DNA of 64,000 bases from Caldifarciminota bacterium (GTDB lineage: Bacteria > Hydrothermota > Tepidihabitantia > SM23-42). Shown here piece after piece: positions 13,292-51,218 of the stretch (the first letter of the stretch is position 1; each line of letters starts with the position of its first letter). Where the stretch lies: NCBI GenBank assembly GCA_020353055.1, contig CP070686.1, forward strand, positions 1,719,410 to 1,783,409, written 5' to 3'. The translations under genes were made by a program, and so were the position numbers. The notes under the pieces were generated by a model. The model had not been told where the DNA came from. It did no database searches and was given only the letters and a program-made list of their open reading frames with translations.

Positions 13292-13319
13292 TTGACAAGC
13301 ATTCGTATCCGGGTAAAAT
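13292..13319 (+). promoter_or_regulatory. Promoter of the DUF362/NapHG cluster
   Basis: TTGACA at 13292-13297, 16-base spacer, TAAAAT at 13314-13319, then a short leader containing a GGGGG ribosome-site-like run before the ATG at 13339. Confidence 0.6.
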
Positions 13320-13338: not shown

Positions 13339-14655
13339 ATGAAAGATATAACAAGACGAGACTTTATAAAATATTGCGGTGTCGGCGCACTCGGGCTTAT
13401 GCTGAAGCCGAATCTATTCTACGGCAGAACAAAGGACGGCCAGCGCGCGAGTGATGTAATACAGTGCTTTGATGAAAACGCAACCAGCGGCAGTTCGATC
13501 AACGAATCTGTCGCGCAGGCGATGATGGACGCATCGATAAAACAATTGACCGGGATCAATGATGTAGGCGAGGCCTGGAAATCGGTTTTTCCTGGTATTA
13601 CCGAGAACAGCGTCATTAGCATTAAAGTCAACGTAATAAATGAATACCTGCCGACCCACCCAGAGTTCGTAAACTGCATCGTTAACGGTCTTACCCAGAT
13701 GCAGCTCGGAAGTCTGCACTTCACGAAAAACAACGTCATTATTTGGGACCGTACCGATTGGGAACTTAACGAGGCTGGCTTCTCGCTTTATGACGGCAGC
13801 GATCCCAACACGGTACGCTGTTTCGGCACGAATCATTCCGGGATCGGCTACGACTATACGATGCCTTTCGATGTTGATGGCGTGACCAGCTATCCCAGCC
13901 GCATACTGACCGAAATGACAGATTATCTTATCAATGCCGCGGTCCTGAAAGACCATAACGGTGCACAGGTTACGCTGACCATGAAAAATCACTACGGCTC
14001 AGTGCACAATCCCGGCTCGCTGCACAGCAGCGGTTACACCTGCAACCCAGACATACCGGCGCTCAATCAACAGATACGTGATGTCGTCGTTCCCAATAAC
14101 ATCCAGAAGATATTCATCGTTGACGGCCTTTTTGCCAAGATCTACTGGGGACCGAGTGGTCTTCCCAATTTTATCCCCAACCTAATGTTGATGAGCTTTG
14201 ATACGGTGGCTTGCGACTGGCAGGGACAGATCCTTATAAATGAGATAAGAAGCAATCAACAGTGGCCCACGATCTCAGCTCCTCACATTACAACCGCTGC
14301 AGCGTCGCCGTACAACCTCGGCACGACCGATGTCAACCTCATCGAGATCAATAATCCTTCCGGCATTAAAGAATTAACAACAACCGCGCCGTTCAACGGT
14401 TCGGTAAAAATCACGCCCAACCCTTTCCGCAGTAGAACGACGATAAGATTCACAGCGGAATCAGCTGCACCGGTGCATATCGACTTGATCGATCCTGCCG
14501 GCCGCATCAGGGATCGGATCTTCGCCGGGGACCTGCCATTAGGTGAGCATCGAATTGAATACGTAATAAGGAAAAAACTCGCCGCTGGCAATTATTTTGT
14601 GAGAATATACAACAACACCGGCAGTTCTTTTAATAAAGTCACTATCTTCAATTAG
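13339..14655 (+). CDS. Tat-signal DUF362-like protein with T9SS-type C-terminal sorting domain
   Basis: 438 residues. The N-terminus, ITRRDFIKYCGVGALGLM, is a twin-arginine signal, implying export after folding, usually with a bound cofactor. The body (about 60-345) has DUF362-like features, including SVISIKVNVINEYLPTHPEFV near the start. The last ~85 residues are a separate domain: ITPNPFRSRTTIRF, then IDLIDPAGRI and LAAGNYFVRIYN. This is the classic layout of a T9SS type-A sorting domain or its FCB relatives, which direct proteins across the outer membrane. Tat export coupled to a T9SS tail is uncommon. The ATG at 13339 is used rather than an in-frame TTG at 13321 that almost touches the -10 box. 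Confidence 0.7.
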   Translation: MKDITRRDFIKYCGVGALGLMLKPNLFYGRTKDGQRASDVIQCFDENATSGSSINESVAQAMMDASIKQLTGINDVGEAWKSVFPGITENSVISIKVNVINEYLPTHPEFVNCIVNGLTQMQLGSLHFTKNNVIIWDRTDWELNEAGFSLYDGSDPNTVRCFGTNHSGIGYDYTMPFDVDGVTSYPSRILTEMTDYLINAAVLKDHNGAQVTLTMKNHYGSVHNPGSLHSSGYTCNPDIPALNQQIRDVVVPNNIQKIFIVDGLFAKIYWGPSGLPNFIPNLMLMSFDTVACDWQGQILINEIRSNQQWPTISAPHITTAAASPYNLGTTDVNLIEINNPSGIKELTTTAPFNGSVKITPNPFRSRTTIRFTAESAAPVHIDLIDPAGRIRDRIFAGDLPLGEHRIEYVIRKKLAAGNYFVRIYNNTGSSFNKVTIFN

Positions 14656-14663
14656 GAGGTAAC

Positions 14664-15224
14664 GTGAAGAAAGCTATGCCTTTTCTTCTTTTATTTTCAA
14701 TTCTTCTCTTCTGCACACAAGAGGATGGTCCCACCATCATCGATGTAGTAGATCTGATACCGCAGAATGACGAGATCAGCGGCTGGACAAGAGACGGTGC
14801 GATGGACGTCGCTGAGAACGAAACGCAACTCTGGGATTTGATTAACGGAGAAGGCGTTGTGTACGTCGACCACGGATTCGTCAAATGCGCGTTCCAGGAT
14901 TTTGTGGGTGACGTGCTGGGGAATCAGCGCAGCGTTCTGCTCCGTGCTTTTGACATGGGCGATTCAGCAAATGCTTATGCAGTATATCATGACAGCCGCA
15001 TAGAAACCGGCGTCGAAGTACCGTGGACAGAAACTGGACACGCGGGCATCGAAGCGCGAATTGAATCGTCGGTATTATATCACAAAATTGAGTTCTGGGA
15101 AGAAAAATTTCATATTGAGGCAACCATTAACGATGCTACGCCAGAGGCGCTTAACATCGCCAAACTGTTCGCCATTAATGTCTCAGATGCGATCAAAATG
15201 ACCACCGGTGATCCGGAGAATTAG
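14664..15224 (+). CDS. DUF6599-like lipoprotein
   Basis: 186 residues with a GTG start at 14664, preceded by AGGAGGT 5 bases upstream. A short lipoprotein signal ends LLFSILLFC. The sequence DLIPQNDEISGWTRDG followed by LWDLINGEGVVYVDHGF and FDMGDSANAYAVYHDSR resembles DUF6599 proteins, which often sit beside DUF362 and polyferredoxin genes. Function unknown. It sits between two DUF362 genes, 8 bases after the first and 1 base before the second. Confidence 0.65.
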   Translation: MKKAMPFLLLFSILLFCTQEDGPTIIDVVDLIPQNDEISGWTRDGAMDVAENETQLWDLINGEGVVYVDHGFVKCAFQDFVGDVLGNQRSVLLRAFDMGDSANAYAVYHDSRIETGVEVPWTETGHAGIEARIESSVLYHKIEFWEEKFHIEATINDATPEALNIAKLFAINVSDAIKMTTGDPEN

Positions 15225-15225
15225 A

Positions 15226-16137
15226 ATGGACAAAATCACGCGCAGGGAATTCATAAAGATCGGTGCCGGCGCGGCCCTCGTCACGCTGCTGCCAAAGTCG
15301 CTGCTTAATGCCGATAAGACAGCCGCACCAGTCATCGGTGTTGCCGAAGGTGATAATTCGAAGCTGGTCAAAGCAGCGGTCGATCTCGTCGGCGGCATCG
15401 ATAAATTCATGAAAGCCGGCGATGTCGTATGCATAAAGCCTAACCTTTCCTTTGCTTCGAACATCGACTGCGGTGCGACCACGAACCCGGCAATAGTCAG
15501 GCAGATGGTACAGTTATGCCTTGATGCCGGTGCTTCAAGAATAATCGTTCTCGACCACACGATCCATGAAGCAACACTCTGCGTCGAGCGCAGCCGCATC
15601 GAGGAGGCAATCATCGATAAGAAGGTAAGCCTCGTAACGCTCCAGCAAGAACGCCAGTATACCGATGTCGACGTTCCTGGCGGCAAAGAATTGAACCGGA
15701 TACAAGTCGCCAAGGCAATACAGAATGCCGATCTGCTGATCAACATGCCGACCGCAAAATCGCACTCGGCAACCGGCGTCAGTCTCGGCCTGAAGAGTCT
15801 CATGGGGCTGATCTGGGACCGCGGTTACCTCCACCGGGTGAACCTCGACCGTGCGATTGCCGAACTGGGTACCGTGATCAAACCGGGGCTCACCGTGATC
15901 GACGCAACACGCGCCCTCACCACAGGTGGACCAGGCGGTCCGGGGAAGACGGTCGTTCTCAATAAAGTGGTAGCGGGCATCGATCCGGTCGCCGTTGATT
16001 CCTACACCGTAGGGATTGCCCAATGGTATAAGAAATCCTGGACCGGAAAACAAGTGAAGTCTATTCGGGCTGCTGCCGATTTGGGCCTCGGTGAAATTGA
16101 CACCGCGAACATGCGGATCAAGCAAGTCAAGGTCTAA
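15226..16137 (+). CDS. Tat-signal DUF362 protein
   Basis: 303 residues from the ATG at 15226 (an in-frame ATG at 15208 lies inside the previous gene; GGAG at 15215-15218 favours 15226). The Tat signal is ITRREFIKIGAGAALVTLLP. The body is a standard DUF362 domain: VVCIKPNLSFA, TTNPAIVRQMVQLCLDAGA, AKAIQNADLLINMPTAKSHSATGVSLGLKSLMG and a C-terminal GIDPVAVDSYTV. DUF362 proteins often carry or neighbour ferredoxin domains and are thought to be redox-linked; the reaction is unknown. Here the iron-sulfur protein is the next gene, which begins at or just beyond this gene's stop. Confidence 0.8.
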   Translation: MDKITRREFIKIGAGAALVTLLPKSLLNADKTAAPVIGVAEGDNSKLVKAAVDLVGGIDKFMKAGDVVCIKPNLSFASNIDCGATTNPAIVRQMVQLCLDAGASRIIVLDHTIHEATLCVERSRIEEAIIDKKVSLVTLQQERQYTDVDVPGGKELNRIQVAKAIQNADLLINMPTAKSHSATGVSLGLKSLMGLIWDRGYLHRVNLDRAIAELGTVIKPGLTVIDATRALTTGGPGGPGKTVVLNKVVAGIDPVAVDSYTVGIAQWYKKSWTGKQVKSIRAAADLGLGEIDTANMRIKQVKV

Positions 16138-16162
16138 CCGGCGAGTAAAACAACACAAGCAG

Positions 16163-17668
16163 GTGAAACTGAGAATAAAAAGATCTCGGATCCTCCGGTG
16201 GATTGTTCAAATCCTCTTTCTTGGTCTTTTCATCACCGCATTCGTACTCACCCGCTATAGCGTACCAGTAACATTTCAAAATCTTTTCTTCAAGTTTGAC
16301 CCGCTGATTCTCCTCGTCGTCAGCATCGCATACCGGACGGTCCTTGCCGCGGCCATGCTGTCCTTGTTGACCGTCGCAGCGACATTGTTCTTCGGCCGGT
16401 TCTTCTGCGGATTCATCTGCCCGCTCGGCACGACCATAGATATCTTTGACGTTTTTGTCAAAAAACAAAAGAAAGCAGCGCCAATACTTCGCAGCGGTAA
16501 ATATCTTATCTTGACCTTCTTACTGGCCGCCGCCTTACTCGGTACTTCTTTCTTGCACTTCTTCGATCCCCTGGCGATCTTCGAGCGTTCGTTGACACTC
16601 ATCTTCTACCCGGCTGCAATGTACATCGCCGGAATTTTCAATGTCGGGATGAGGGCAATTTACACCGAGTCGGCAATCGCTTTTCTCTTTCTATTCATCA
16701 TTCTCGGATTGAATTTTATCAGCCAGAGATTCTGGTGCCGCAATGTCTGCCCGCTGGGCGGGCTGTTGGCTCTCTTCTCGAAATCCGCGGTCTTCAAGTT
16801 TTCTTTTGCAGAAGGCTGCACAGAGTGTGGCATATGCGAAAAGATATGCCCGACCGGCGCTATTTCCATCGAGAAAATGAGCGTTGACTCCGGTGAATGC
16901 ATCGACTGCCTGCGTTGCTTATATGAATGCCCGCAGCATGTCTTCGAGTATAAAATTTCACTGGCGCCGAAGCGTCTGGATCTCAGCCGGCGGCAACTGA
17001 TCGGGGCACTGGGCGCCGGCATCATAATCGCTCCGCTCGCCAATTCGTTGTTGCACCGGAGGCTATCGGGCCGGCTCATCCGGCCGCCGGGTTCGATCCC
17101 TGAAGCAGATTTCCTGGACATTTGCATACATTGCGGCAAGTGTATGAAGGTCTGCCCTACGAACGGATTGCAGCCTTGTATCCTCGAGGCCGGCGTGAAT
17201 GGTCTATGGACACCAAGGCTTGCTGCGCGGATCGGAGGTTGCGAAAAGAACTGCAACATGTGCGGACAGGTGTGCCCGACCTCAGCGATCAGAAACCTCC
17301 CCCTTGAAGAAAAGACTTATGCAAAGATGGGAACGGCGGTCATCGACCGCGCGCGGTGCATTGCCTGGGAGCAGGACCGGGTTTGCTTGATATGTGACGA
17401 AGCCTGCCCTTTTGCGGCCATCAGTTCGCTTAACGAAACGGTGCGCGGGACGACACTGCTCAGACCGTTCATGGACGAGCGGATCTGCACCGGCTGCGGA
17501 CTGTGTGAGGCACGTTGTCCCATCGAAGAACGCGCCGCTATCGAAGTTTACTCCATCGGTGAAGAACGCAAGCGCCGCGGTTCCTACATTACCGAAGAGA
17601 AGATCAGACTGCGCGCATGTGAAGAGAAAGACGAAGATATACCGTCTGGCTTTATTATCGACAATTGA
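16163..17668 (+). CDS. Fused NapH-NapG-type membrane polyferredoxin
   Basis: About 501 residues. The N-terminal half is NapH-like: several membrane spans, the motif FFCGFICPLG, a second FWCRNVCPLGG, then two [4Fe-4S] sets (CTECGICEKICP near 218, CIDCLRCLYECP near 245). Then comes an internal twin-arginine-like segment, SRRQLIGALGAGIIIAPL (near 274), as found at the start of NapG, and four more Cys sets (CIHCGKCMKVCP, CEKNCNMCGQVCP, a C-x8-C-x2-C-x3-C set, CTGCGLCEARCP). Six clusters in total. NapH and NapG normally are separate proteins that pass quinol electrons to a periplasmic acceptor. The start is uncertain: GTG at 16163 or GTG at 16091, the latter overlapping the DUF362 gene. Confidence 0.8.
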   Translation: MKLRIKRSRILRWIVQILFLGLFITAFVLTRYSVPVTFQNLFFKFDPLILLVVSIAYRTVLAAAMLSLLTVAATLFFGRFFCGFICPLGTTIDIFDVFVKKQKKAAPILRSGKYLILTFLLAAALLGTSFLHFFDPLAIFERSLTLIFYPAAMYIAGIFNVGMRAIYTESAIAFLFLFIILGLNFISQRFWCRNVCPLGGLLALFSKSAVFKFSFAEGCTECGICEKICPTGAISIEKMSVDSGECIDCLRCLYECPQHVFEYKISLAPKRLDLSRRQLIGALGAGIIIAPLANSLLHRRLSGRLIRPPGSIPEADFLDICIHCGKCMKVCPTNGLQPCILEAGVNGLWTPRLAARIGGCEKNCNMCGQVCPTSAIRNLPLEEKTYAKMGTAVIDRARCIAWEQDRVCLICDEACPFAAISSLNETVRGTTLLRPFMDERICTGCGLCEARCPIEERAAIEVYSIGEERKRRGSYITEEKIRLRACEEKDEDIPSGFIIDN

Positions 17669-20600
17669 TACCACTCCTTTTATTTCTTTCCGGTTTTTCA
17701 CAAAAACAAATCGCGGATAATCCGATAATACTCGACGGCATAGAAAGCCGCTATGCATCGGAATACATACTCGTAACGACCCCGGTCGGCATCTACAATT
17801 TTGAACGGAGCTCAAAGACCTGGAAGAGTATAACGACGGCCTATGGCCTGCCTGACAACGAAGCGTACATCGTGGGTCTCGATCAAGGAATTCTCTGGAT
17901 CGCAACGGAAAAAGGGGTGGCATCGGCCGATATCCGACTCAATGATTGGATAACGTACGAAGTACCTGGCAGGGTGAGCGGACTCTCCTTCGATGAGAGT
18001 TATGTCTGGGTTACGGGTGATTTCGGCTTAAAGAGATTCGACAAGTACGCAGAGATATGGGAGGATATCGATGACACGCCGGCGCAGGACATAATCTTCG
18101 ATAGGAATTTCCTGTGGATCGCCACCGCGCGCGGTATTCTCAGGTACAATCGTGAATTCGAGAGGATCGAGGAAATGCACGCGGCGCCAAAGTACGAATA
18201 CCAATACATCATCGACACTAAATCGAAAATCTGGTTCCTGTCCGAGGATAATTTCGCAACCTACGAGAAAAGCACGGAAGCCTGGACCGAGTACCCAGCA
18301 TTAAGGGTAACTGATTATGCGGCACTGGATGATTCCCTGTTCATAGTCAGCGACAACCAGGTTCTTCTATACAACCCGACGACCAACAGTTGGGGAAAAG
18401 TAGTTGAAGTGGAAGGAGCCGGCAAGATAAACGGCATATCCATCAGCCCAAAAACATCGAATTACATCTCGCTCGCCACCGACCAGGGATTGCTGTTGTA
18501 TGACCTGGTCGAAAGGACGCGCATCATCTACAACCGTAATAATGGCATGTTCAATGATACAATAACCGATGTTTACGAGGCACCAAACTACCTATTTGCG
18601 ATCGGTCAAGGCAGCATACAGTACTATGACAAGAGCACCGGCATCTGGCAAATCGAAGAAGTGACTCCGGTCGCCGGACTCAGTTCTGAGATCTTTCACT
18701 ACGACGAAGCCGGGCTGCATTTTGACGCGATCAATGATCTGGACATACGGCTGCAAGGCAGGGCGTACTATTCGGTTTCCGGAATCATCAGGGACAGTCT
18801 GGAGTGGAACGACTACTCGACGATAAATCTGCGTCTGATCGGTCAGCATGCGAGTAATCGTATGATATCGATATATTATGATGATACAAATAAGGAAGAT
18901 ACACTATACGGCTTTGGATACCGCGGACTTGACAACGATTTTCTGTACCGCGCGAATGGGGGCTTCATCGAGTCCGAATATTACGAATTCAATCTGGTAC
19001 CAGAATTCTCGACATTTGGCGCAAACGCCCGACTGCGCCATCGCGCACACAACCTCATGGTTCAGGGGGGACAACTTAAATCCAGCCATCAAAGCGATTT
19101 CTTTTACGGCCGATCGTTCGAACGCGATACCATAATACAGGACATCAATTATTCCAGGAACGCGTTCTACAGAATACCACCAGGAAGCAACATCACGCGC
19201 GATGGGACGGATACGATGTTCGTCGATGACCGTTTGCCCGGAACAAACACGATAGACACCAGAATAGGTTATACCATTGCCGGGATCACCGGCGATTATG
19301 ACCCCTTGATTAACGGTTTTGATTACTACATCGACTATCAAAACGGTACTCTGCAGATCCGGAGCCCGGTCGGTAATGACTATGTACTCGTCCTCAAGGC
19401 TAATGGGCAGGAAATCATCATACAATCCGAAATAGTAAGCGGCAACGTGCTTTCGAACATATACGCGCTCGGACCGGATATGGTGCCCGGTTCTCTTGAA
19501 TTGACCATAGTCGACACACTCGGCATAGTGCATCCTCTCAGTGATTTCGGAATTGACAACGACAACAACAATAGGGTCGATGCGGAATTCATCAGTTACA
19601 AACTCGGCTATCTAATGTTTCCTCAGGAGCGACCGTTCCCGGACGAAGTGTACGACCAGAATCTCAACATATACACATTAGACTACAGGTTTTTCACCCA
19701 GTCAGTATTCTACTCCCTCAGCAAGCAGCCGGTGCTGATCGGTAGTGAAGAGGTTCTTGTGGACGGTGAAACAATGACAAGGAACTACCATTACAGCATT
19801 GATTACACGTCAGGCACGGTCCTTTTCCTGAGCGACGATGTCGTTTCTGATTTCAGTGAGGTCGAAATACAATATGTTGCAGTGGAAAGAACACGCTCGG
19901 ACCCCTTCTATGCGGTGCAGCCGAACATAAAGATCGGCGATAATATCAACGTCGCGCCAGGTTACAGTTCAATTGACGGGGAGAACATCTTTCATCTATC
20001 CGGCAAGTACCAGAGCGGCTCGGCAAAGAATTCAATCATGTTCGTACCACAGATTGCAGCCAGTGAAGAAAGAGACTATGCCCAGGATTACCTGCTCGTC
20101 GCAAACTACGGAGCGCTCACACTGAATGCCAACTACCGGGGTTTCTCAGAGGAATTTGAATCGTTCGGCCTCAGTGAAAAGCGCTACGGAGATCTGGAAC
20201 ACAGCGGAGCGGTCTCGCTCGGTATCGAACCGCTCAACTATGTGCGTTTGAACGCAAACGTGAAAAAGGAATGGCTCACCGATTCGCTTCACAATTCGAA
20301 TAACACCGAATATATCTCCGGAAAACTCGAGTATCTTAACCCGGTCCTGCCGAACGGCTTCTTGCTCGCCGCCAGGAATAAACTGCCGGATTACGAGAAA
20401 CTCCGGCTTCAATGTAACGCGAATTACAACTTCCAGCTGGCCGAGAGCAAGGTGCGGCTCACATCCTCGGTATACAATGATTTTCTCGATTTCAGTAATA
20501 ACGACAAGAAGAGAATACTCGGATACACCGTTAACACCAACATAGCACTGCGCTTTCCAGTACGGGTGGACGTCTATACACACGGTGTGGACCGTTACGC

Positions 20601-21504
20601 AGAAGAATATCGAGAGAGAAATGAAAATGAAATTCGCCTCGCGCTGAACATAGACGTGATACCTGGTCTGTACTACACAGGTAATTATCAACAGAAGAGG
20701 GAAACCTTTTTCCTTCCGGTATCGAAGGACATATCGATTCGGAGTTACATGTATAATGATCTGAACATAGCACCCGGACGGTGGTATTCTCCCTTGAGCA
20801 TCGTTAATTTCTCGCTGGGCACTGGACAGAATTTTGAAGAGCACCTGGGTAATGTTCCACTCGGACGCGAACTACCTCTCTTCTTGTTCGGTCCGGTCGA
20901 AAACGACATTGCCATGCTCTCTGATCTACGTAATGTCTATGCAAAAATATATTTCACCCCATTATCCAATCTGAACCTGCAGCTGAAGCGTTCGGTGAAC
21001 CGCAGCGGCACCGCCCGCTACGACATGCCGATCCTGCGCAACGGTTACGCCGACGAAATAAGGGTAGAATATGAACAGACACTGATCGGGTTCGTCACAG
21101 CCGTCTTCAACCGGACGGAAAACAGGTTCTATCCAATAAAGGTCACCACGAACACCTATCTCGAATGGATCAGATCCTGGACCGCACAACTGAGGACAAA
21201 ATTAAGCACCAATTACAGAGCGGATACCGACGATTACACGACAGTGCAGACCGAGGATTCGGAATCCACCGTCAGGATGGAAACGCTTTGGAGATTCGGC
21301 CGCAGGTCATATGTGAACGTAAGCCTCGGGGCAAGAAGGCAGGACAGATACACGACGGGCATCAGCAACTCGATCCTTCCCGGATTCAGCATTTATCTCA
21401 ACATGGTCGAATTCCTTTATATGCAATTCGATTACGAAGCGAATATAGTAATTCATGGCTCTACGACCCATTCGCTTTCGGCAAAGATAACCGGATCGTT
21501 CTGA
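17665..21504 (+). CDS. Giant exported propeller plus outer-membrane barrel-like protein
   Basis: 1279 residues with a TTG start that overlaps the previous stop by 4 bases and no clear ribosome site, so translation is probably coupled. Residues 2-12 are hydrophobic and could be a minimal signal peptide. The first ~300 residues form two-component-regulator-type propeller repeats (ILWIATEKGVASADI, YVWVTGDFGLKRFDKY, FLWIATARGILRYN). The middle has two copies of a Y-x-IDY-x-(N/S)GT motif (near 551 and 708), each followed by beta strands. The C-terminal ~500 residues alternate hydrophobic and aromatic positions and end KITGSF, as in outer-membrane barrels. The IDY motifs recall SprA/Sov-type T9SS translocon proteins, but this is only a resemblance. 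Confidence 0.55.
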   Translation: MIPLLLFLSGFSQKQIADNPIILDGIESRYASEYILVTTPVGIYNFERSSKTWKSITTAYGLPDNEAYIVGLDQGILWIATEKGVASADIRLNDWITYEVPGRVSGLSFDESYVWVTGDFGLKRFDKYAEIWEDIDDTPAQDIIFDRNFLWIATARGILRYNREFERIEEMHAAPKYEYQYIIDTKSKIWFLSEDNFATYEKSTEAWTEYPALRVTDYAALDDSLFIVSDNQVLLYNPTTNSWGKVVEVEGAGKINGISISPKTSNYISLATDQGLLLYDLVERTRIIYNRNNGMFNDTITDVYEAPNYLFAIGQGSIQYYDKSTGIWQIEEVTPVAGLSSEIFHYDEAGLHFDAINDLDIRLQGRAYYSVSGIIRDSLEWNDYSTINLRLIGQHASNRMISIYYDDTNKEDTLYGFGYRGLDNDFLYRANGGFIESEYYEFNLVPEFSTFGANARLRHRAHNLMVQGGQLKSSHQSDFFYGRSFERDTIIQDINYSRNAFYRIPPGSNITRDGTDTMFVDDRLPGTNTIDTRIGYTIAGITGDYDPLINGFDYYIDYQNGTLQIRSPVGNDYVLVLKANGQEIIIQSEIVSGNVLSNIYALGPDMVPGSLELTIVDTLGIVHPLSDFGIDNDNNNRVDAEFISYKLGYLMFPQERPFPDEVYDQNLNIYTLDYRFFTQSVFYSLSKQPVLIGSEEVLVDGETMTRNYHYSIDYTSGTVLFLSDDVVSDFSEVEIQYVAVERTRSDPFYAVQPNIKIGDNINVAPGYSSIDGENIFHLSGKYQSGSAKNSIMFVPQIAASEERDYAQDYLLVANYGALTLNANYRGFSEEFESFGLSEKRYGDLEHSGAVSLGIEPLNYVRLNANVKKEWLTDSLHNSNNTEYISGKLEYLNPVLPNGFLLAARNKLPDYEKLRLQCNANYNFQLAESKVRLTSSVYNDFLDFSNNDKKRILGYTVNTNIALRFPVRVDVYTHGVDRYAEEYRERNENEIRLALNIDVIPGLYYTGNYQQKRETFFLPVSKDISIRSYMYNDLNIAPGRWYSPLSIVNFSLGTGQNFEEHLGNVPLGRELPLFLFGPVENDIAMLSDLRNVYAKIYFTPLSNLNLQLKRSVNRSGTARYDMPILRNGYADEIRVEYEQTLIGFVTAVFNRTENRFYPIKVTTNTYLEWIRSWTAQLRTKLSTNYRADTDDYTTVQTEDSESTVRMETLWRFGRRSYVNVSLGARRQDRYTTGISNSILPGFSIYLNMVEFLYMQFDYEANIVIHGSTTHSLSAKITGSF

Positions 21505-21586: not shown

Positions 21587-21614
21587 TTGACAGTATAGAT
21601 ATAATAACTATAAT
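21587..21614 (+). promoter_or_regulatory. Consensus promoter of the tol-pal operon
   Basis: TTGACA at 21587-21592, 16-base spacer, TATAAT at 21609-21614. A leader of about 20 bases with AGGAGG (21629-21634) precedes the pal ATG at 21639. Confidence 0.8.
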
Positions 21615-21638: not shown

Positions 21639-22106
21639 ATGCGTTATGCAAAACTGGGTGTACCTATATGCTTGGCTTTGTTGATGCTGTTGGGTTGCCC
21701 TAGGAGACAAGTAGTAGAACCTGCTGAGGAAGTCATCGTTGAAGAAGTTCCCGAGGAAATAATAATCGAGGAACCGGCTCGACCACCATTCGAGATGCAG
21801 CGTATTTTCTTCGATTTTGACAAATCAGATATCCGTGTTGATGCTGCTGAAGCATTGAGGCAAAATGCACAAATGCTGGAACTCTACCCGGAGGCAAATA
21901 TCACCATCGAAGGGCACTGTTGTGAGATAGGTACGGCCGAATACAACATTGCATTGGGTGAGAGACGCGCAAAGGCTGCGTCTGAATATCTTGTGATGCT
22001 TGGTATCGATGCCGTGCGTTTATCCACGGTCAGCTATGGTGAAGAAAGACCGCTCGATCCAACGGTTCTCGAGCAGAACCGAAGGTGTGAATTCAAAACA
22101 AATTAG
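21639..22106 (+). CDS. pal: Peptidoglycan-associated lipoprotein Pal
   Basis: 155 residues. Lipoprotein signal ending LMLLGC, a Glu/Val/Ile-rich linker (EEVIVEEVPEEIIIEEP), then an OmpA-type peptidoglycan-binding domain: RIFFDFDKSDIR, ITIEGHCCEIGTAEYN, LGERRAKAASEYLVMLGI and a terminal QNRRCEF. Pal tethers the outer membrane to peptidoglycan and binds TolB. The usual GHTDERGT motif reads GHCCEIGT, so the otherwise common Asp and Arg are changed. It is the first gene of the operon; in Proteobacteria pal follows tolB. Confidence 0.9.
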   Translation: MRYAKLGVPICLALLMLLGCPRRQVVEPAEEVIVEEVPEEIIIEEPARPPFEMQRIFFDFDKSDIRVDAAEALRQNAQMLELYPEANITIEGHCCEIGTAEYNIALGERRAKAASEYLVMLGIDAVRLSTVSYGEERPLDPTVLEQNRRCEFKTN

Positions 22107-22128
22107 CGAACATCAAATACATTCTCCA

Positions 22129-22842
22129 ATGATGCGTACAAAAATAATAAGAGACATTATTATATTGCCAATACTCGTGCTGGTAGCATTTACCAGCACG
22201 AGTTGTTTGAGCAGACAGCGGTTCAGCAATTATGGCTGGCAACTTGACAGCCTGCGATACTACACAAGGAAAATTGACAGCCTGATCGCCGTGCAGGGTA
22301 ATGAAATTAAACTGCTGCGTACTGACCTTTTCATAAAAACGAACGAACTCAGTCAGAAATTCGACATGCTTAATTCACGACTCAGCGAATCTGAAACCCA
22401 GATCAGCCAACTCTACAGTAAAATCGGCCCATCCCAGCGAGCGGCCGCTGATTCCGAAGCCATTGCACAGGTCAGCCCGGAAGCCCGTTTGATATACGAA
22501 TCCGCCTACAAGCATTATATAAAGGGCAACTATCAAGAAGCGATCGATGGATTTCTGGCATACCAACAAGCAACGCAGGATGGTCCGCTCGTGGATAACG
22601 CGCTCTACTGGATCGGCGAGTCGCATGCCGCTTTGGGCCAGCTGCAGAAGGCGGTAAATACGTTCCAGGAATTAGTCAATAAATATCCGAAAAGCGCGCG
22701 CGTACCGACCGCGCTTTACCGCATGGGCATTATCTACGAAGAAAGCAAGGATTTGAAGACAGCCCGTTTTTACTACAATCAGGTGATCAGGGATTTCCCT
22801 AACTCACCCGAGGCTGCCCTCGCAAGGAATAGATTGCAATAA
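22129..22842 (+). CDS. cpoB: CpoB/YbgF-like TPR lipoprotein
   Basis: About 237 residues from the first of two adjacent ATGs (22129, 22132). A lipoprotein signal ends VAFTSTSC. A coiled-coil region follows (LDSLRYYTRKIDSLIAVQGN to SESETQISQLYSKIG) and then about three tetratricopeptide repeats (YESAYKHYIKGNYQEAIDGF, ALYWIGESHAALGQLQKAVN, LYRMGIIYEESKDLKTARFY). CpoB links Tol-Pal function to septal peptidoglycan synthesis. Proteobacterial CpoB is soluble and periplasmic, so the lipid anchor is a difference. Its signal-peptide codons contain a perfect 13-bp hairpin. Confidence 0.85.
   Translation: MMRTKIIRDIIILPILVLVAFTSTSCLSRQRFSNYGWQLDSLRYYTRKIDSLIAVQGNEIKLLRTDLFIKTNELSQKFDMLNSRLSESETQISQLYSKIGPSQRAAADSEAIAQVSPEARLIYESAYKHYIKGNYQEAIDGFLAYQQATQDGPLVDNALYWIGESHAALGQLQKAVNTFQELVNKYPKSARVPTALYRMGIIYEESKDLKTARFYYNQVIRDFPNSPEAALARNRLQ
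22173..22203 (+). promoter_or_regulatory. Perfect 13-bp hairpin inside cpoB
   Basis: ACTCGTGCTGGTA (22173-22185), loop GCATT, then its exact complement TACCAGCACGAGT (22191-22203), inside the signal-peptide codons. There is no T run after it, so it is not a standard terminator. It may affect RNA stability or translation between pal and the rest of the operon. Confidence 0.5.
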
Positions 22843-22844
22843 CC

Positions 22845-23549
22845 ATGAATATATTCAGGATCTTCATAGAATCGAGTATCGCCGCTCAGATCATAATGAT
22901 CATTCTCGTCATTTTTTCAATCTGGTCATGGGGCATCTTCCTCAAGAAAATGTTCGATTTCGGAGGTGTGAAGCGGCGCACGAAAAGGTTCATGTCCAAT
23001 TACAATTTCCACAAGGACACAAAAGAATGGGGAAACTTCGGTTTTCAACTCACTGACAATCCATATGGGAGAATTCTTGCCAGCGGGCTTGAGGAGTACA
23101 AGAAACTGAAAGTGAAGGTAAGCGCGCGTCTGATGAACCAGCAAGAATCTAAAAAAGAACGCGGTTTTATCAATGAACTCGCCGACAACGTTCGCATGGC
23201 AATGGAAAGAACAAAGATCGAAGAGACGGCGCAGCTCGAAACATCCCTGCCAACTCTGAGCACGTTTGTCAGCGTCAGCCCTTTCCTGGGGCTTCTGGGT
23301 ACGGTGTGGGGAATCATGGAAGCCTTTCTGGAAATCCGTGCGCGTGGTTCGGCACACATCACCATTGTCGCACCAGGGATTTCCGATGCTTTGATCACAA
23401 CTGTGTACGGACTCCTCGTCGCAATTCCCGCCCTCATTTTCTACAACATATTCAGAAGCCGGGTGAACAGTTACAGCGGCGATCTCGAGAAGTTCATTAA
23501 CGAAATCTATGCCAACCTGCGCAAGGAATTACTCACCCTTTCACAATGA
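22845..23549 (+). CDS. tolQ: TolQ-type proton-channel subunit
   Basis: 234 residues, MotA/TolQ/ExbB family. One N-terminal span (AQIIMIILVIFSIWSWGIFL), a long cytoplasmic loop, then two spans with the signature TFVSVSPFLGLLGTVWGIMEAF and ALITTVYGLLVAIPALIFYN. It forms the pentameric channel that, with TolR, uses the proton gradient to energise TolA. It begins 2 bases after cpoB and overlaps tolR by 4 bases. Choice of TolQ over ExbB rests on the surrounding tol genes. Confidence 0.92.
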   Translation: MNIFRIFIESSIAAQIIMIILVIFSIWSWGIFLKKMFDFGGVKRRTKRFMSNYNFHKDTKEWGNFGFQLTDNPYGRILASGLEEYKKLKVKVSARLMNQQESKKERGFINELADNVRMAMERTKIEETAQLETSLPTLSTFVSVSPFLGLLGTVWGIMEAFLEIRARGSAHITIVAPGISDALITTVYGLLVAIPALIFYNIFRSRVNSYSGDLEKFINEIYANLRKELLTLSQ

Positions 23550-23941
23550 ACAACAAGGGCTTGATTTCCGAGATCAATATCACCTCACTTGCCGACGTCA
23601 GTATCACTCTGCTGGTGATATTCATCATCACCGCGCCGATGATGACCCCGGGTATCGATGTCAACCTGCCCCGCACCGATGCTTCTCTGCCTCACGATGA
23701 AGAGGGCGTAACGGTCTCGGTAAATAAAGAGCTCCAAATATTCGTCGATAACGAACAGGTACAGGTAGATAACTTCGAGGCGAAAATCCGACAGATCATT
23801 AACAGCAAACCGCCCGGTATCATCATCTACCTGCGCGCCGATAAAGAAGTCGACTACGGCTTTGTCGTTGAAATAGTGGGCAGATTACGCAAGGCGGGTG
23901 TCAAGGAACTTGGACTGGTTGCCGAAATACCGCAGGGATGA
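23546..23941 (+). CDS. tolR: TolR/ExbD-type stator protein
   Basis: 131 residues. One N-terminal membrane span with the proton-path Asp: INITSLADVSITLLVIFIIT (the D in LADV). A periplasmic ExbD/TolR domain follows (VNLPRTDAS, IIIYLRADKEVDYGFVVEIVGRLRKAGV). Overlaps tolQ and tolA by 4 bases on each side. Confidence 0.92.
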   Translation: MNNKGLISEINITSLADVSITLLVIFIITAPMMTPGIDVNLPRTDASLPHDEEGVTVSVNKELQIFVDNEQVQVDNFEAKIRQIINSKPPGIIIYLRADKEVDYGFVVEIVGRLRKAGVKELGLVAEIPQG

Positions 23942-24558
23942 ACCGCTTCCATATTCTGTCAGTCGTGCTGCATATTGTGATCTTTGCGGCGATCTTCATT
24001 TCGGGTCGTGCCCATTTCAAGCCGATACCAAAACTGGATGTATATAAAGTCAGCCTCGCCCCTTTACCTCAACCAAAAGTAACAGCCCCCGAAGAGATCC
24101 CGGAGGAAAAAGAAGAAATCGTTCAGGAGGAAAAACAGGAAGAGAAAGCACCGCCAAAGAAAGAAGAAAAAAAACCACAACCGGCCAAGAAGCCCGTTGA
24201 AGAAAAAGCCAAGGAAGTGGTCAAAAAGGGCCTACCAGACATAAAACCGAAGATCTACACAGGCAGTGGTCGGGGGTTTACCTACTCGTATTATCTGAAT
24301 ATCCTCCTTAACAAAATAGGCAAGAACTGGCATAACCCGTTCCGCGACCAAAATGTAGTCTTGAGAAGCATTGTCTACTTTGAGGTCGATAAAAACGGAA
24401 CCATATACAGTGTCCGGCTGGAAGATGATTCCGGCAATGATATATACAACGAAACAACCATGCGTGCCGTGGTAGCCACGAAATCGCTTCCGCCGCTTCC
24501 CGATGAATTTGCTGATGATTATCTGAAAGTGCACCTGGAGTTCCTTACCGCAAAGTGA
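23938..24558 (+). CDS. tolA: TolA/TonB-like energy transducer
   Basis: 206 residues. A single N-terminal span (FHILSVVLHIVIFAAIFISG), a charged Pro/Glu/Lys spacer (EEIPEEKEEIV, EKAPPKKEEKKPQPAKKP; about residues 45-100) and a C-terminal TonB/TolA domain with YYLNILLNKIGKNWHNPF, YFEVDKNGTIYSVRLEDDSGND and LPPLPDEF. It would transmit motor force to TolB/Pal or TonB-dependent receptors. The C-terminal domain is of the general TonB type; the tol context favours TolA. Confidence 0.85.
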   Translation: MNRFHILSVVLHIVIFAAIFISGRAHFKPIPKLDVYKVSLAPLPQPKVTAPEEIPEEKEEIVQEEKQEEKAPPKKEEKKPQPAKKPVEEKAKEVVKKGLPDIKPKIYTGSGRGFTYSYYLNILLNKIGKNWHNPFRDQNVVLRSIVYFEVDKNGTIYSVRLEDDSGNDIYNETTMRAVVATKSLPPLPDEFADDYLKVHLEFLTAK

Positions 24559-25787
24559 GAGCACTGCTTCTATCTGTATTGCTTATGACTCAGGCGGGGA
24601 TCGCACAAGATGTTTATCTACGCCTCACCGACTACGGCGGCGGTAAGATTAACCTCGTCGTCGAACCATTTGCATCCGGGGAATCGTCGCTGCGCGATGA
24701 AGAAGCACGGCAGATCACGGTCATCGAAGACGTCTTAAAAAAAGACCTCGAATACTCTCTTTACTTCGAAATCTTCACCGACCCGACATTTCTTGCAGAA
24801 GATGCTCAGGGTGTAATACTGAAAGCCCAGGCAGAGAGCCAAAAACTCTCGGTCCGCCTGGAGGATTTTGAGTCCCGTGAGAAAATAGGAGAACGGACAT
24901 ACGACATCGAAGATGATACAAGACTCACCGCCCACATTATCGCGGATGACGTCATAAATCTCCTTACCGGAGAGAAAGGTATTTCCAGAACCAAGGTGCT
25001 TTTCTCTTACAAAACGCCGGCCGGCAAGGAGATCGGTCTGATCGACTACGATGGATATAACTTTACACGCGTTACCAATAACGGTAATATCAACCTCTTC
25101 CCGTCGTGGGCCTCGGACGGCAAGCGGATGCTTTTTTCTACTTACACAGATGACCGTCTAAAGATCTATATATATGACTTCACAGAGAAAAAGATGACCT
25201 CTCTCTCATCTTTCCCCGGTCTAAATTTCGCTCCGTGCTGGTCTCCCGACGGGACGAAGATATGCATGAGTTTATCTAAGGATGGTAATGCCGAGCTATA
25301 CCTGCTCAATCTAGATACCAGAAAAATGCACCGCTTGACCAATAATTCGGCAGTTGATACCTCGCCCGCGTTCTCGCCAAATAGTCGCGAAATCGTATTT
25401 GTGTCCGACCGCTCAGGTAACCCTCAGATTTACGTAATGGACACCCATGGAGGTAATGTTCGGCGTCTAACATATCACGGTAATTACAACACCTCGCCGG
25501 CCTGGTCGCCGCGCGGTGATATTATTACCTACGTCTCCAGGGAGAAAGACAACTCCCAACAGGTATACGTTACAGACCCGACTGACTTCAGCCCGGTTCG
25601 GCTCACTTATCTTGGCAACAACGAAGAACCGGGATGGTCTCCGGACGGGCTGCACATCGTGTTCACTTCCAACCGAACCGGCCGGTACGAATTATACACG
25701 ATGAACTGGGATGGATCGCGCCTGCGCAGGTTGACAAACGGCATTACGGCCAACGCTCCGGACTGGTCTCCGGTTACAGAACAATAA
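24555..25787 (+). CDS. tolB: TolB periplasmic beta-propeller protein
   Basis: 410 residues from a GTG overlapping the tolA stop by 4 bases. Signal peptide RALLLSVLLMTQAGIAQ, an N-terminal TolB domain (to about residue 150), then six PD40/WD40-like propeller blades, e.g. INLFPSWASDGKRMLFSTYT, NFAPCWSPDGTKICMSLS, DTSPAFSPNSREIVFVSDRS, EEPGWSPDGLHIVFTSNRTG. It binds Pal in the periplasm. Last gene of the operon; only one base separates its stop from the convergent minus-strand lipoprotein gene. Confidence 0.93.
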   Translation: MRALLLSVLLMTQAGIAQDVYLRLTDYGGGKINLVVEPFASGESSLRDEEARQITVIEDVLKKDLEYSLYFEIFTDPTFLAEDAQGVILKAQAESQKLSVRLEDFESREKIGERTYDIEDDTRLTAHIIADDVINLLTGEKGISRTKVLFSYKTPAGKEIGLIDYDGYNFTRVTNNGNINLFPSWASDGKRMLFSTYTDDRLKIYIYDFTEKKMTSLSSFPGLNFAPCWSPDGTKICMSLSKDGNAELYLLNLDTRKMHRLTNNSAVDTSPAFSPNSREIVFVSDRSGNPQIYVMDTHGGNVRRLTYHGNYNTSPAWSPRGDIITYVSREKDNSQQVYVTDPTDFSPVRLTYLGNNEEPGWSPDGLHIVFTSNRTGRYELYTMNWDGSRLRRLTNGITANAPDWSPVTEQ

Positions 25788-39392: not shown

Positions 39393-39799
39393 GCTCGTTT
39401 CGTTTGCAGGTATTCTTCAAGCATGATCGAAGCAGAGACGCGGTCGATATCTTCCTTCTTCATGCCCAAGCCCGCATCCTTGAACTTCGCCATTGCGTAT
39501 TTACTGAGATAACGTTCATCCCATGGTTCAATTTTGATGTCTAACTGGTTTCTGAGTTTCTTGATAAAACGTTCAACTTCACGGCTGATCTCAGTGGGTT
39601 CACCCCTCATCGAAACCGGATTCCCAACGATTATCAAACCCACGTTGTTCTCCGTAGCTATACACTTAAGTCGTTTAATCAAATCAGCGACCGACTTCGG
39701 CTTGATAGTCACTAGAGGCTGGGATATTGTACATAACGGGTCGGTGATCGCCACACCAACCCTCTTCTTACCGTAGTCGATTGCCATAATACGTGTCAT
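39389..39799 (-). CDS. ruvX: RuvX/YqgF Holliday-junction resolvase-like rRNA nuclease
   Basis: 136 residues, normal for the family. RNase H-like fold: MAIDYGKKRVGVAITDP, GLIIVGNPVSMRGEPTE, EPWDERYLSKYA and a terminal DRVSASIMLEEYL with the conserved Asp. YqgF is linked to 16S rRNA 5' maturation. The ATG at 39799 is chosen over a TTG at 39808 that touches the -10 box; nine bases separate the -10 from this ATG, leaving a leader of about two bases. First gene of the five-gene operon ruvX-mltG-cyclase-cyclase-GGDEF. Confidence 0.9.
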   Translation of the reverse strand: MTRIMAIDYGKKRVGVAITDPLCTISQPLVTIKPKSVADLIKRLKCIATENNVGLIIVGNPVSMRGEPTEISREVERFIKKLRNQLDIKIEPWDERYLSKYAMAKFKDAGLGMKKEDIDRVSASIMLEEYLQTKRA

Positions 39800-39808
39800 G
39801 TTTGACAA

Positions 39809-39836
39809 ATTATACGGATATATTTATTTCTGTCAA
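39809..39836 (-). promoter_or_regulatory. Promoter of the ruvX-mltG-cyclase operon
   Basis: On the minus strand TTGACA at 39831-39836, 16-base spacer, TATAAT at 39809-39814. Its -35 lies six bases from the -35 of the divergent ubiA-like promoter, so the two polymerase sites overlap. Confidence 0.75.
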
Positions 39837-39842
39837 TATTTA

Positions 39843-39870
39843 TTGACTTTGCATGCTTTATTTGTAGAAT
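39843..39870 (+). promoter_or_regulatory. Promoter of the UbiA-type gene, leaderless
   Basis: TTGACT at 39843-39848, 16-base spacer, TAGAAT at 39865-39870, then five bases to the GTG at 39876. Confidence 0.7.
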
Positions 39871-39875
39871 ATATT

Positions 39876-40688
39876 GTGGCATATTTACGTATTATTCGAC
39901 CTGTGAATTGTGTCATTGCATCCGTCTCTGTGTTGGTCGGTGCCTGGATAGGAAGAGATATCTTCCTCTCAAACGGTCTCATCGCAGCAGCGATCATCGG
40001 TTTCATGGTGTGTGCATTCGGTAATCTTGTGAACGACATCAAAGATATAGAAATAGACCGTATCAACAACCCAACCCGCCCCCTCCCTTCAGGCAAAGTG
40101 AAGAAGAACATCATCTGGTTGATGGCTTTTGCGTTCATGATGTGCTCAGCCACCGCCTCATTTTTCCTCGGGACATTCCCTTTTTTGGTCGTAATTGCGG
40201 CACTTATTCTTCTTTTATTCTATTCGGTATATCTGAAGAAAACGCTTTTCGGCAATCTCGCGGTCGCCTTGATATCAGGGCTCAGTTTCATTCTTGGAGG
40301 GCTTGTTGCCGGTAATGCCGCATCTCTCGTTCCTCTGATATTTTCGATATTCATCCATATGCCGCGAGAAATCCTGAAGGACGTAATGGATATGAGGGGT
40401 GATAGAATGATCGGTGCAATTACACTGCCAATTATGGTGGGAACCACACAGGCTTACAACATCAGCGCCATATTTCTGAGCGTTTTGTGTCTCATGCTCC
40501 CGATACCCTACATTATCGGCATACTCGATATCGTGTACATCATAATCGTCCTCGCGGTAGCTTACCCCATTCTCATCTACATCATATGGCGGCTCGTCAA
40601 GAAACCATCAGTTAACGCATTGCCCCTTGTCAGCAATCTTATCAAAGCATCTATGATCGTCGGCCTGGCGGCGATGATTGCTTCATGA
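39876..40688 (+). CDS. UbiA-family prenyltransferase, DGGGP synthase-like
   Basis: 270 residues from the GTG at 39876, five bases after the -10 box; the protein then starts VAYLRIIRPVNCVIASVSVL, as family members usually do. About eight membrane spans. The two Asp motifs are NDIKDIEIDRINNPTRPLPSG (N-D-x3-D-x3-D; quoted in part as NDIKDIEID) and DVMDMRGD. The overall pattern resembles geranylgeranylglycerol-phosphate geranylgeranyltransferase of archaeal ether-lipid synthesis more than MenA or UbiA; related genes are known in FCB bacteria. The lipid substrate is inferred. Overlaps uppP by 4 bases. Confidence 0.75.
   Translation: MAYLRIIRPVNCVIASVSVLVGAWIGRDIFLSNGLIAAAIIGFMVCAFGNLVNDIKDIEIDRINNPTRPLPSGKVKKNIIWLMAFAFMMCSATASFFLGTFPFLVVIAALILLLFYSVYLKKTLFGNLAVALISGLSFILGGLVAGNAASLVPLIFSIFIHMPREILKDVMDMRGDRMIGAITLPIMVGTTQAYNISAIFLSVLCLMLPIPYIIGILDIVYIIIVLAVAYPILIYIIWRLVKKPSVNALPLVSNLIKASMIVGLAAMIAS

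Positions 40689-50109: not shown

Positions 50110-50113
<4 letters not shown>
48983..50113 (+). CDS. FAD-dependent amine/amino-acid oxidoreductase (DAO family)
   Basis: 376 residues from a GTG at 48983. N-terminal FAD-binding AIIIGGGIIGCATGYYLTKKG, then STGRCIGGIRQQFS, VINAAGPFARDI and a C-terminal FWIVGGMCGHGFMLGPEIGWL. Closest in layout to sarcosine oxidase beta subunit or glycine/D-amino-acid oxidase types; substrate cannot be read from sequence. It follows kbl, which makes glycine, so a glycine-related substrate is possible. Its stop overlaps tgt by 4 bases (GTGA). Confidence 0.8.

Positions 50114-51218
<1,105 letters not shown>

Follow-up and report, generated by a model that had tools for sequence, protein, structure and literature searches.

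Gene organization of the operon

The window, a 64,000-nucleotide stretch of contig CP070686.1 of a Caldifarciminota bacterium, contained five genes on the + strand in the order D1, a DUF6599 lipoprotein gene, D2, a polyferredoxin gene (PFd), and dn. The nearest named genomes to the source were those of candidate division WOR-3. D1 (13339–14655; 438 aa) was composed of a Tat signal, a DUF362 domain, and a T9SS-type C-terminal tail, and was followed by a probable lipoprotein of the DUF6599 family (14664–15224; 186 aa) with a lipobox-like Cys17. D2 (15226–16137; 303 aa) had a Tat signal and a DUF362 domain with a predicted LarA-like fold. PFd (16163–17668) was a NapH–NapG fusion polyferredoxin with six [4Fe-4S] motifs and an internal twin-Arg ahead of the NapG half, and dn (17665–21504; 1279 aa) was predicted to form an N-terminal propeller and a large SprA-like outer-membrane beta barrel.

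The first four genes were all found where the initial annotation had placed them (13339–17668) and in the order it gave. Their packing was as tight as described there, with gaps of 8 bases between D1 and the DUF6599 gene and 1 base between the DUF6599 gene and D2; the best-supported start of PFd was the GTG at 16163, 25 bases past the D2 stop. The set of four was incomplete, since the fifth gene, dn, overlapped the PFd stop by 4 bases. The same order recurred in relatives when the gene set was searched for, and therefore is not a matter of chance.

A promoter-like sequence, TTGACA-16-TAAAAT, was located 5' of D1 (13292–13319, + strand), with 11/12 matches, a consensus match only. The gene after dn was Pal-like and the first of a Tol-Pal-like run, and it was preceded by a second such sequence, TTGACA-16-TATAAT (21587–21614, + strand; 12/12, a consensus match only). 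Pal, CpoB, TolR, TolA, and UppP are the names that we presume for the neighbouring genes, and a TPR assignment among them is likewise presumed. Judged from the sequence, the operon probably ends before the Pal-like gene. The borders are suggested rather than shown, because the scan as a whole returned 21 promoter-like sites, whereas shuffled sequences gave 15.6 ± 3.5.

The D2–PFd pair

PFd had been described as a membrane polyferredoxin with six clusters, and this was borne out by a NapH-like N half, a NapG-like C half, and cysteines for six [4Fe-4S] clusters. Across the 64 PFds compared, each of the 24 cluster cysteines was conserved in 61 to 64 sequences. The two CX3CP motifs of the NapH half (C86/C90/C196/C200) were present in 64/64, the four cluster motifs of the NapG half in 63 to 64 of 64, and the twin-Arg pattern of the linker in 62/64. 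Scores against the curated models were below the cut-offs for both NapG (93.2 vs 269 bits) and NapH (91.8 vs 234 bits). By its sequence, PFd belongs with the NapH–NapG fusions described by Tooke et al. 2017. It shared with MLMS-1 PFD of that study the NapH half with two cytoplasmic cluster motifs, a twin arginine ahead of the final hydrophobic segment, and the NapG half with four cluster motifs. That paper mentions no DUF362 partner, whereas pairing with DUF362 is the rule here; it reports that placement of a related polytopic polyferredoxin by Sec and Tat was demonstrated (PMC5449189).

A D2-type gene was found on the same strand and within 1.3 kb of PFd in 68/80 named loci from more than ten phyla, which supports the link between DUF362 and the polyferredoxin that had been posited from the window. 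Of the 12 loci without a nearby D2-type gene, 6 were cut by contig ends, and 6 were uncut with no DUF362 beside PFd. DUF362 genes apart from a polyferredoxin, which the initial annotation regarded as contrary to its reading, were seen in part: at locus L010 of the same genome, a second Tat DUF362 gene and a DUF6599 gene formed one run with no polyferredoxin adjoining. Locus L010 and the six uncut PFd loci count against the explanation preferred below. Apart from DUF362 itself, the neighbours that recurred comprised DUF6599, dn, a mixed single-linkage cluster seen in 13 loci, and families seen in 3 or 4 loci; no third gene was widely shared across the other phyla outside WOR-3. A literature search on DUF362 combined with polyferredoxin found no paper. 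The core of the module is D2 and PFd, a pair without known function.

D2 matched DUF362 (PF04015) with 155.6 bits, above the cut-off of 24. Its predicted structure matched the cofactor domain of an enzyme of the lactate racemase (LarA) family (Z 19.1; r.m.s.d. 2.7 Å over 208 residues), and the first row beyond the LarA-like group in the structure search dropped to Z 5.9. The match stopped short of the C-terminal part of LarA. The H180-x9-K190 motif of D2 (15763–15795, + strand) had the spacing of His174 and Lys184 of LarA, and both residues were invariant in 44/44 D2 partners outside WOR-3, an alignment from which 6/50 sequences were left out by length. The His-x9-Lys pattern was present in 59/59 D2s and 16/16 D1s, compared with 3/1180 shuffles. 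H180 and K190 were paired with His174 and Lys184 in a profile alignment that itself lacked significance (DUF362 against LarA; probability 0.1, E 0.45). Lar_N (PF09861) was matched by neither D1 nor D2 with an E threshold of 0.01. Searches of the PDB sequences with D2 (phmmer and hmmsearch) yielded no relevant entry, and D1 and D2 had no match in PHROGs. The Pfam DUF362 model matched one Lar_N gene of the same genome in the same frame (2.1e-4, below the cut-off), and DUF362 and LarA share Pfam clan CL0471 according to PMC11770544. D2 shared with the LarA superfamily the predicted fold of the N-terminal domain and the His-x9-Lys spacing, whereas it differed in the Tat signal, the redox partner gene, the lack of the C-terminal part, and a LarC that was not in every genome.

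The source genome held LarC and three Lar_N proteins. Among the 61 genomes examined for LarC, it was present in 21/26 PFd genomes, including the source, and absent in 5/26 (G048, G053, G056, G058, and G060; 84–97% complete). Because LarC was missing from these five, the nickel-pincer nucleotide (NPN) can hardly be obligatory, and it was rejected as an obligatory cofactor.

Fe-S had been named among the possible cofactors of these DUF362 proteins, and this was weakened by the cysteines of D2 and by the LarA fold. C98 was present in 35/44 and C119 in 32/44 partners, and the paired D2 of one locus (L143) had neither; an Fe-S cofactor in D2 is unlikely because no cysteine was conserved throughout. 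Other DUF362 proteins of the same genome (loci L011 and L012) carried ferredoxin motifs, and Fe-S motifs are noted together with DUF362 in two papers (PMC7955657, PMC5742341). Judged by motifs, Fe-S occurs within the DUF362 family, though not visibly in D2.

Predicted surface components in WOR-3

D1 matched DUF362 (PF04015) at 5.6e-14 with 53.1 bits, above the Pfam cut-off of 24, and its profile matched that of the D2 type with a probability of 99.0. Tat signals were confirmed on both DUF362 proteins; the twin Arg of D1 was kept in 16/16 aligned sequences, and three of its cysteines were invariant. The T9SS-type sorting domain of D1 (14416–14646, + strand) scored 24.7 bits against TIGR04183 (cut-off 23), whereas PF18962 scored 21.1 bits on D1 and the tail scored 24.1 bits in the genome-wide search, both below the Pfam cut-off of 27. 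The genome carried 104 T9SS tail matches at E ≤ 0.001, the D1 tail among them, as well as SprA (390 bits; cut-off 200). The tail and SprA agree with the surface location initially proposed for one of the DUF362 proteins.

The DUF6599 protein matched its family model with 35.3 bits (cut-off 27). A Cys was found at residue 16 or 17 in 15/17 sequences, and the starts of the other two are probably misplaced. The context of Cys17 is presumably a lipobox. No paper was found in a literature search on DUF6599.

SprA, the T9SS translocon, led the Foldseek matches of the predicted dn barrel (E 4.9e-10). A dn segment (19657–19875, + strand) matched the SprA family model TIGR04189 (E 4.3e-6; 24 bits, far under the 200-bit cut-off), and the SprA profile and dn matched both ways over this one segment. 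The superposition of the dn model, which was of middling confidence (pTM 0.52), on SprA gave Z 18.6 with an r.m.s.d. of 11.2 Å over 565 residues, tied with Z 18.3 for 6r2q chain B (Mtr complex; taken to be MtrB) and near other barrels. The N-terminal propeller was weakly matched to PorZ-N, and a phmmer search of PDB sequences with dn returned matches at chance level only. Unlike SprA, dn had 1279 aa against a 2319-position model and an N-terminal propeller, and a separate SprA gene was present in the genome.

Proposed electron transfer and alternative explanations

We give an even chance to the explanation that the five-gene set is an envelope electron-transfer operon, in which electrons pass from PFd to D2, with a surface arm in WOR-3. 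PFd would be an inner-membrane protein with two of its [4Fe-4S] clusters facing the cytoplasm and four facing the periplasm, the clusters being assigned by motif and the topology from a tested relative. It would receive electrons from a donor in the cytoplasm or the membrane and hand them to D2. D2 would be exported folded via Tat, would most likely hold a cofactor in a putative LarA-type pocket at Lys190 and His180, and may serve at that site as an oxidoreductase or a redox relay of the periplasm. In WOR-3, Tat would export D1, a D2 relative, and the T9SS tail would then direct D1 to the surface; the DUF6599 lipoprotein would be a member of this surface arm, and dn may carry D1 across the outer membrane or connect D1 with the periplasm. 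Such an arrangement, in which a single protein bears signals for both Tat and T9SS, a pairing that we do not claim as unreported, and a SprA-like barrel is encoded in the operon, would give a folded redox protein an export route of its own to the surface. Of the electron path to exported acceptors initially drawn, the DUF362–PFd link, the Tat signals, and the surface address of D1 were supported, whereas the quinone source, Fe-S, and the four-gene extent were weakened. The DUF362 family is widespread and carries a name that denotes unknown function; with its tight and wide partnership with PFd, the LarA-type fold, and the His-x9-Lys motif, it becomes testable whether a cofactor is carried on the lysine, which one, and how PFd acts on it. 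A broader claim is improbable as a whole: that the DUF362 family consists of redox enzymes with the LarA fold and a lysine-tethered cofactor, that NapHG polyferredoxins are dedicated to wiring them throughout bacteria, and that WOR-3 extends this wiring into a surface system without cytochromes, its folded DUF362 enzyme leaving by Tat and then by a type IX route with its own SprA-like barrel.

The initial scheme, in which the NapH half oxidises quinol and the DUF362 proteins are the terminal acceptors of a respiratory chain, appears quite unlikely. PFd shared the domain make-up of both halves with NapGH of nitrate respiration, and the NapH and NapG models matched it below their cut-offs, but PFd was a single fused protein with DUF362 instead of NapA as its neighbour. 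No reductase family was found among the immediate neighbours scanned, as the initial annotation had observed for a terminal reductase. Neither MenD nor PF02621, which we take to be the MqnA/MqnD family, was matched in the 97% complete genome, which counts against a quinone pool, though a quinone may come by an unusual route or be scavenged; the broad UbiA family had 5 matches. NapGH acts as a quinol dehydrogenase in E. coli and Wolinella (PMC5449189). A survey (PMC12542636) reports that nearly every WOR-3 genome has complexes I and II, as would be consistent with a quinone, whereas it names Rnf as the phylum's main respiratory enzyme and cites a reactor genome in which quinone-dependent oxidative enzymes were not expressed. 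In the explanation preferred above, ferredoxin is no less likely than quinol to be the donor of PFd.

It is rather unlikely that PFd serves in maturation or repair, as a reductase acting on the cofactor or cysteines of DUF362 proteins that have a non-respiratory role such as ligand or metal binding. The three invariant cysteines of D1, the two mostly conserved ones of D2, and a single regular partner outside WOR-3 fit a dedicated service enzyme, whereas six clusters are heavy machinery for repair and at least one paired D2, that of L143, lacked both C98 and C119. It is very unlikely that D2 and D1 are exported LarA-like enzymes that transfer hydride with NPN while PFd feeds in or draws off electrons: the fold, the His-x9-Lys motif, and the presence of LarC with three Lar_N proteins agree with this, but the Lar_N proteins could explain LarC here, five PFd genomes lacked LarC, and D2 had no LarA C-terminal part. 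A somewhat larger, still minor, possibility is that dn is an outer-membrane protein merely on a shared transcript and the surface arm is unconnected to the redox pair. Outside WOR-3 and two relatives (L092 and L093), the pair occurred without D1 or full dn, the dn match in L104 was weak (1e-6, at a contig end), and dn sat elsewhere in the genome in G010. Against this, strong dn matches and PFd occurred together in 22 of 61 genomes, with PFd only in 4, dn only in 1, and neither in 34; these counts include related genomes, and therefore the p value of the Fisher test is too small. The one dn match among the 35 genomes without PFd was partial, and the three genomes with uncut PFd loci lacking D1 and DUF6599 also lacked dn. 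In 21/26 loci, including the window, dn was directly 3' of PFd.

Composition and recurrence of the operon

The four genes of the initial annotation were all located at their stated positions by gene and domain matches, and the set was extended by a fifth gene, dn. The first protein, D1 (13339–14655), combined a Tat signal with a DUF362 domain and ended in a tail of the type IX secretion system (T9SS) type, which reached the NCBIfam cut-off (24.7 vs 23) but not the Pfam cut-off (21.1 vs 27). It was followed by a DUF6599 protein over the family cut-off (14664–15224), whose residue 17 cysteine was lipobox-like, and by D2 (15226–16137), which carried a Tat signal and matched DUF362 strongly. The polyferredoxin PFd contained a NapH-like half and then a NapG-like half; its best start, chosen from orthologue starts, was GTG 16163. 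The dn gene (17665–21504) overlapped the PFd stop codon. The host genome was a single contig of 2.69 Mb (97% complete).

Among 61 genomes (the host and 60 relatives), PFd was present in 26 at E up to 1e-30. When the window was compared with the 25 other PFd loci, the order D1, DUF6599, D2, PFd was kept in 18 of the 26, which provided the recurrence that the initial annotation had proposed to look for. In L058, L059, L070, L071 and L072, the contig end was reached before the D1 region was visible, and L061, L062 and L066 contained D2 and PFd only. The dn gene lay directly downstream of PFd in 21 of the 26 loci. Strong dn matches, far stronger than SprA-level matches near 1e-12, were found together with PFd in 22 genomes, while 4 had PFd only, 1 dn only and 34 neither (Fisher p 1.4e-11, relatedness of genomes ignored). 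The sole dn-only genome, G012, had a partial dn match, and the four PFd genomes without dn were the three with D2 and PFd only and G014 (66% complete).

D1 occurred twice and DUF6599 was doubled in L067, L092 and L093, with the DUF6599 doubling of L067 inside one reading frame. A single ORF spanned PFd and dn at L056:2–3523 (G021), as a real fusion or through a stop codon lost in assembly. A short extra match to the D1 Tat-signal region, perhaps a remnant or duplicated start, was located just upstream of D1 at L051:9753–9830 and L052:2904–2984. At L069 / G010:C1:218307–221999, the PFd match ended at query residue 386, and dn was elsewhere in G010. Directly after dn in the window, a Tol-Pal-like run (21639–25784) gave TolQ-type and propeller matches, and we took its other genes, by eye, to be Pal, CpoB, TolR and TolA/TonB; a similar run followed dn in L079 and L081. 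Two overlapping frames at 50110–51215 of the window looked, by eye and from their motifs, like one queuine tRNA-ribosyltransferase gene broken by a frameshift.

The DUF362–polyferredoxin pair across phyla

A PFd-alignment scan found 363 PFd relatives in named genomes, of which the best 80 were analysed. The closest loci belonged to candidate division WOR-3, Stahlbacteria and TA06 records (19 of the 80), many from the same genomes as the relatives set. In 68 of these best 80 (65 of 77 by automated count, and L079, L081 and L146, each with both genes), PFd had a D2-type DUF362 gene on its own strand no more than 1.3 kb away; this was so in 53 of the 61 records outside those three groups. Among the titles of the paired loci were WOR-3, Fibrobacter, Chitinivibrionales, Syntrophaceae and other Deltaproteobacteria, Nitrospirae, Armatimonadetes, Caldithrix, Acidobacteria, Omnitrophota, Neomarinimicrobiota, Zixibacteriota, Chloroflexi, Myxococcaceae and candidate division B38. 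A reading frame separated the two genes in L121 and L156, and DUF6599 was also upstream of the pair in L128 and L134. No further widely recurring neighbour family was found, except one mixed cluster in 13 loci. Six of the 12 loci without a paired DUF362 were cut by a contig end (L088, L096, L097, L112, L154 and L157), and six were uncut (L124, L129, L140, L141, L149 and L153). In L149, an Acidobacteria record, a Tat-type 4Fe-4S protein (L149:2357–3448) was upstream of PFd at the usual DUF362 place.

In 64 PFds of at least 430 aa from loci L092–L158, each of the 24 cluster cysteines was kept in 61 to 64 proteins, the four CX3CP cysteines in all 64, and a twin-arginine pattern before the NapG half in 62. 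PFd is one of the polytopic polyferredoxins described by Tooke et al. 2017 (PMC5449189), which predicts NapG clusters outside and NapH clusters inside and reports Tat export of fusions that carried the membrane part of a relative. DUF362 is not named in that paper, whereas PFd here adjoins DUF362. The component families were already known; the literature searches turned up neither the DUF362–polyferredoxin partnership nor the five-gene operon.

Similarity of D2 to lactate racemase

The D2 model (mean pLDDT 85.5) matched LarA and malate racemases over their N-terminal part (Z 19.1, r.m.s.d. 2.7 Å, 208 residues). Eleven LarA-family entries had Z of 17.1–19.1 and T. maritima 4nar 16.6, with the next entry at 5.9, and Foldseek ranks 1–18 were all LarA-type. 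DUF362 and DUF2088 of LarA are placed in one Pfam clan (PMC11770544). The frame that holds one of the three host Lar_N (PF09861) genes was also matched by the Pfam DUF362 model, at 21.8 bits and 2.1e-4, under the cut-off.

In LarA, Arg75, Lys184 and His200 contact the nickel-pincer nucleotide (NPN) and His174 is catalytic (PMC7583248). His180 and Lys190 of D2 were spaced as His174 and Lys184 of LarA, and the sole DUF362–LarA profile alignment, which was not significant, paired exactly these residues. Both were invariant in 44/44 D2 partners (L099 onward; 50 minus 6 dropped for length, L146 not included), as were K71, P72, N73, D110, R199, H203, D226 and D258. The His/Lys spacing occurred in 59/59 D2s and 16/16 D1s vs 3/1180 shuffled sequences, and D1 aligned the same residues to the DUF362 profile (probability 99.0). 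No cysteine was kept in every D2 (C98 in 35/44, C119 in 32/44); C43, C161 and C235 of D1 were kept in 16/16.

The host genome encoded three Lar_N proteins and the nickel-insertion protein LarC. LarC was found in 11 of 35 genomes without PFd and in 21 of 26 with it; since it was absent from five PFd genomes (84 to 97% complete), the module overall can probably do without NPN.

Proposed electron transfer and surface arm

The electron path from the quinone pool drawn by the initial annotation kept its DUF362–PFd pairing, and its quinone source was weakened: no match to MenD or PF02621 (MqnA/MqnD) was found in the host genome. Five UbiA matches, one at 39798–40685 in the window, were no proof of a quinone because the family is too broad. 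Complexes I and II, reported in nearly all WOR-3 genomes (PMC12542636), count against a non-quinone reading. We infer that ferredoxin is at least as likely as quinol to be the PFd donor.

Electrons would flow through PFd to D2, on whose Lys190 a cofactor may sit. Tat signals, cluster motifs and co-occurrence were established at the sequence level, and the folds are predicted; the overall envelope electron-transfer scheme is evenly balanced in our judgement. It is unlikely that PFd is instead a maturation or repair enzyme for DUF362 proteins; the probabilities given to the alternatives overlap, and the one concerning dn bears on the surface arm only. Against the scheme count the six uncut PFd loci without a DUF362 neighbour and a host run at L010:5234–8747 (C1, ~897–901 kb), in which a second Tat DUF362 protein and a longer DUF6599 protein occurred with no polyferredoxin. 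The latter agrees in part with what the initial annotation had named, together with the lack of any cofactor, as contrary to its reading, namely such proteins without the polyferredoxin in relatives. The gene between DUF362 and DUF6599 at L010 was TPR-like as judged by eye, and L077 had a similar arrangement.

The suggestion that one DUF362 protein is on the cell surface gained support from the D1 tail and from a host SprA, the T9SS translocon (1826 aa, 390 bits); D1 would be transported to the surface, and dn may have a role in this arm. T9SS-tail matches numbered 104 in the host genome at E up to 0.001, with signal in 1 of 14 control genomes. The model of dn residues 330–1279 (mean pLDDT 75.3, pTM 0.52) had long strands throughout. 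Foldseek placed SprA entries at ranks 1–3 and 5; by Z, SprA (18.6, r.m.s.d. 11.2 Å over 565 residues) stood level with 6r2q_B from the Mtr complex (18.3) and with an FhuA model (17.8), followed by many ordinary barrels (Z 14–17). The dn propeller matched PorZ-N weakly (E 0.006, under the cut-off). The SprA family model matched dn at 4.3e-6, and in other genomes the dn model picked up long frames at about 1e-14 to 1e-11, of which many had 1700–1900 aa, the size of the host SprA. On these results dn is, as modelled, a large barrel of the outer membrane; kinship with SprA is probable, though dn falls short of the family cut-off.
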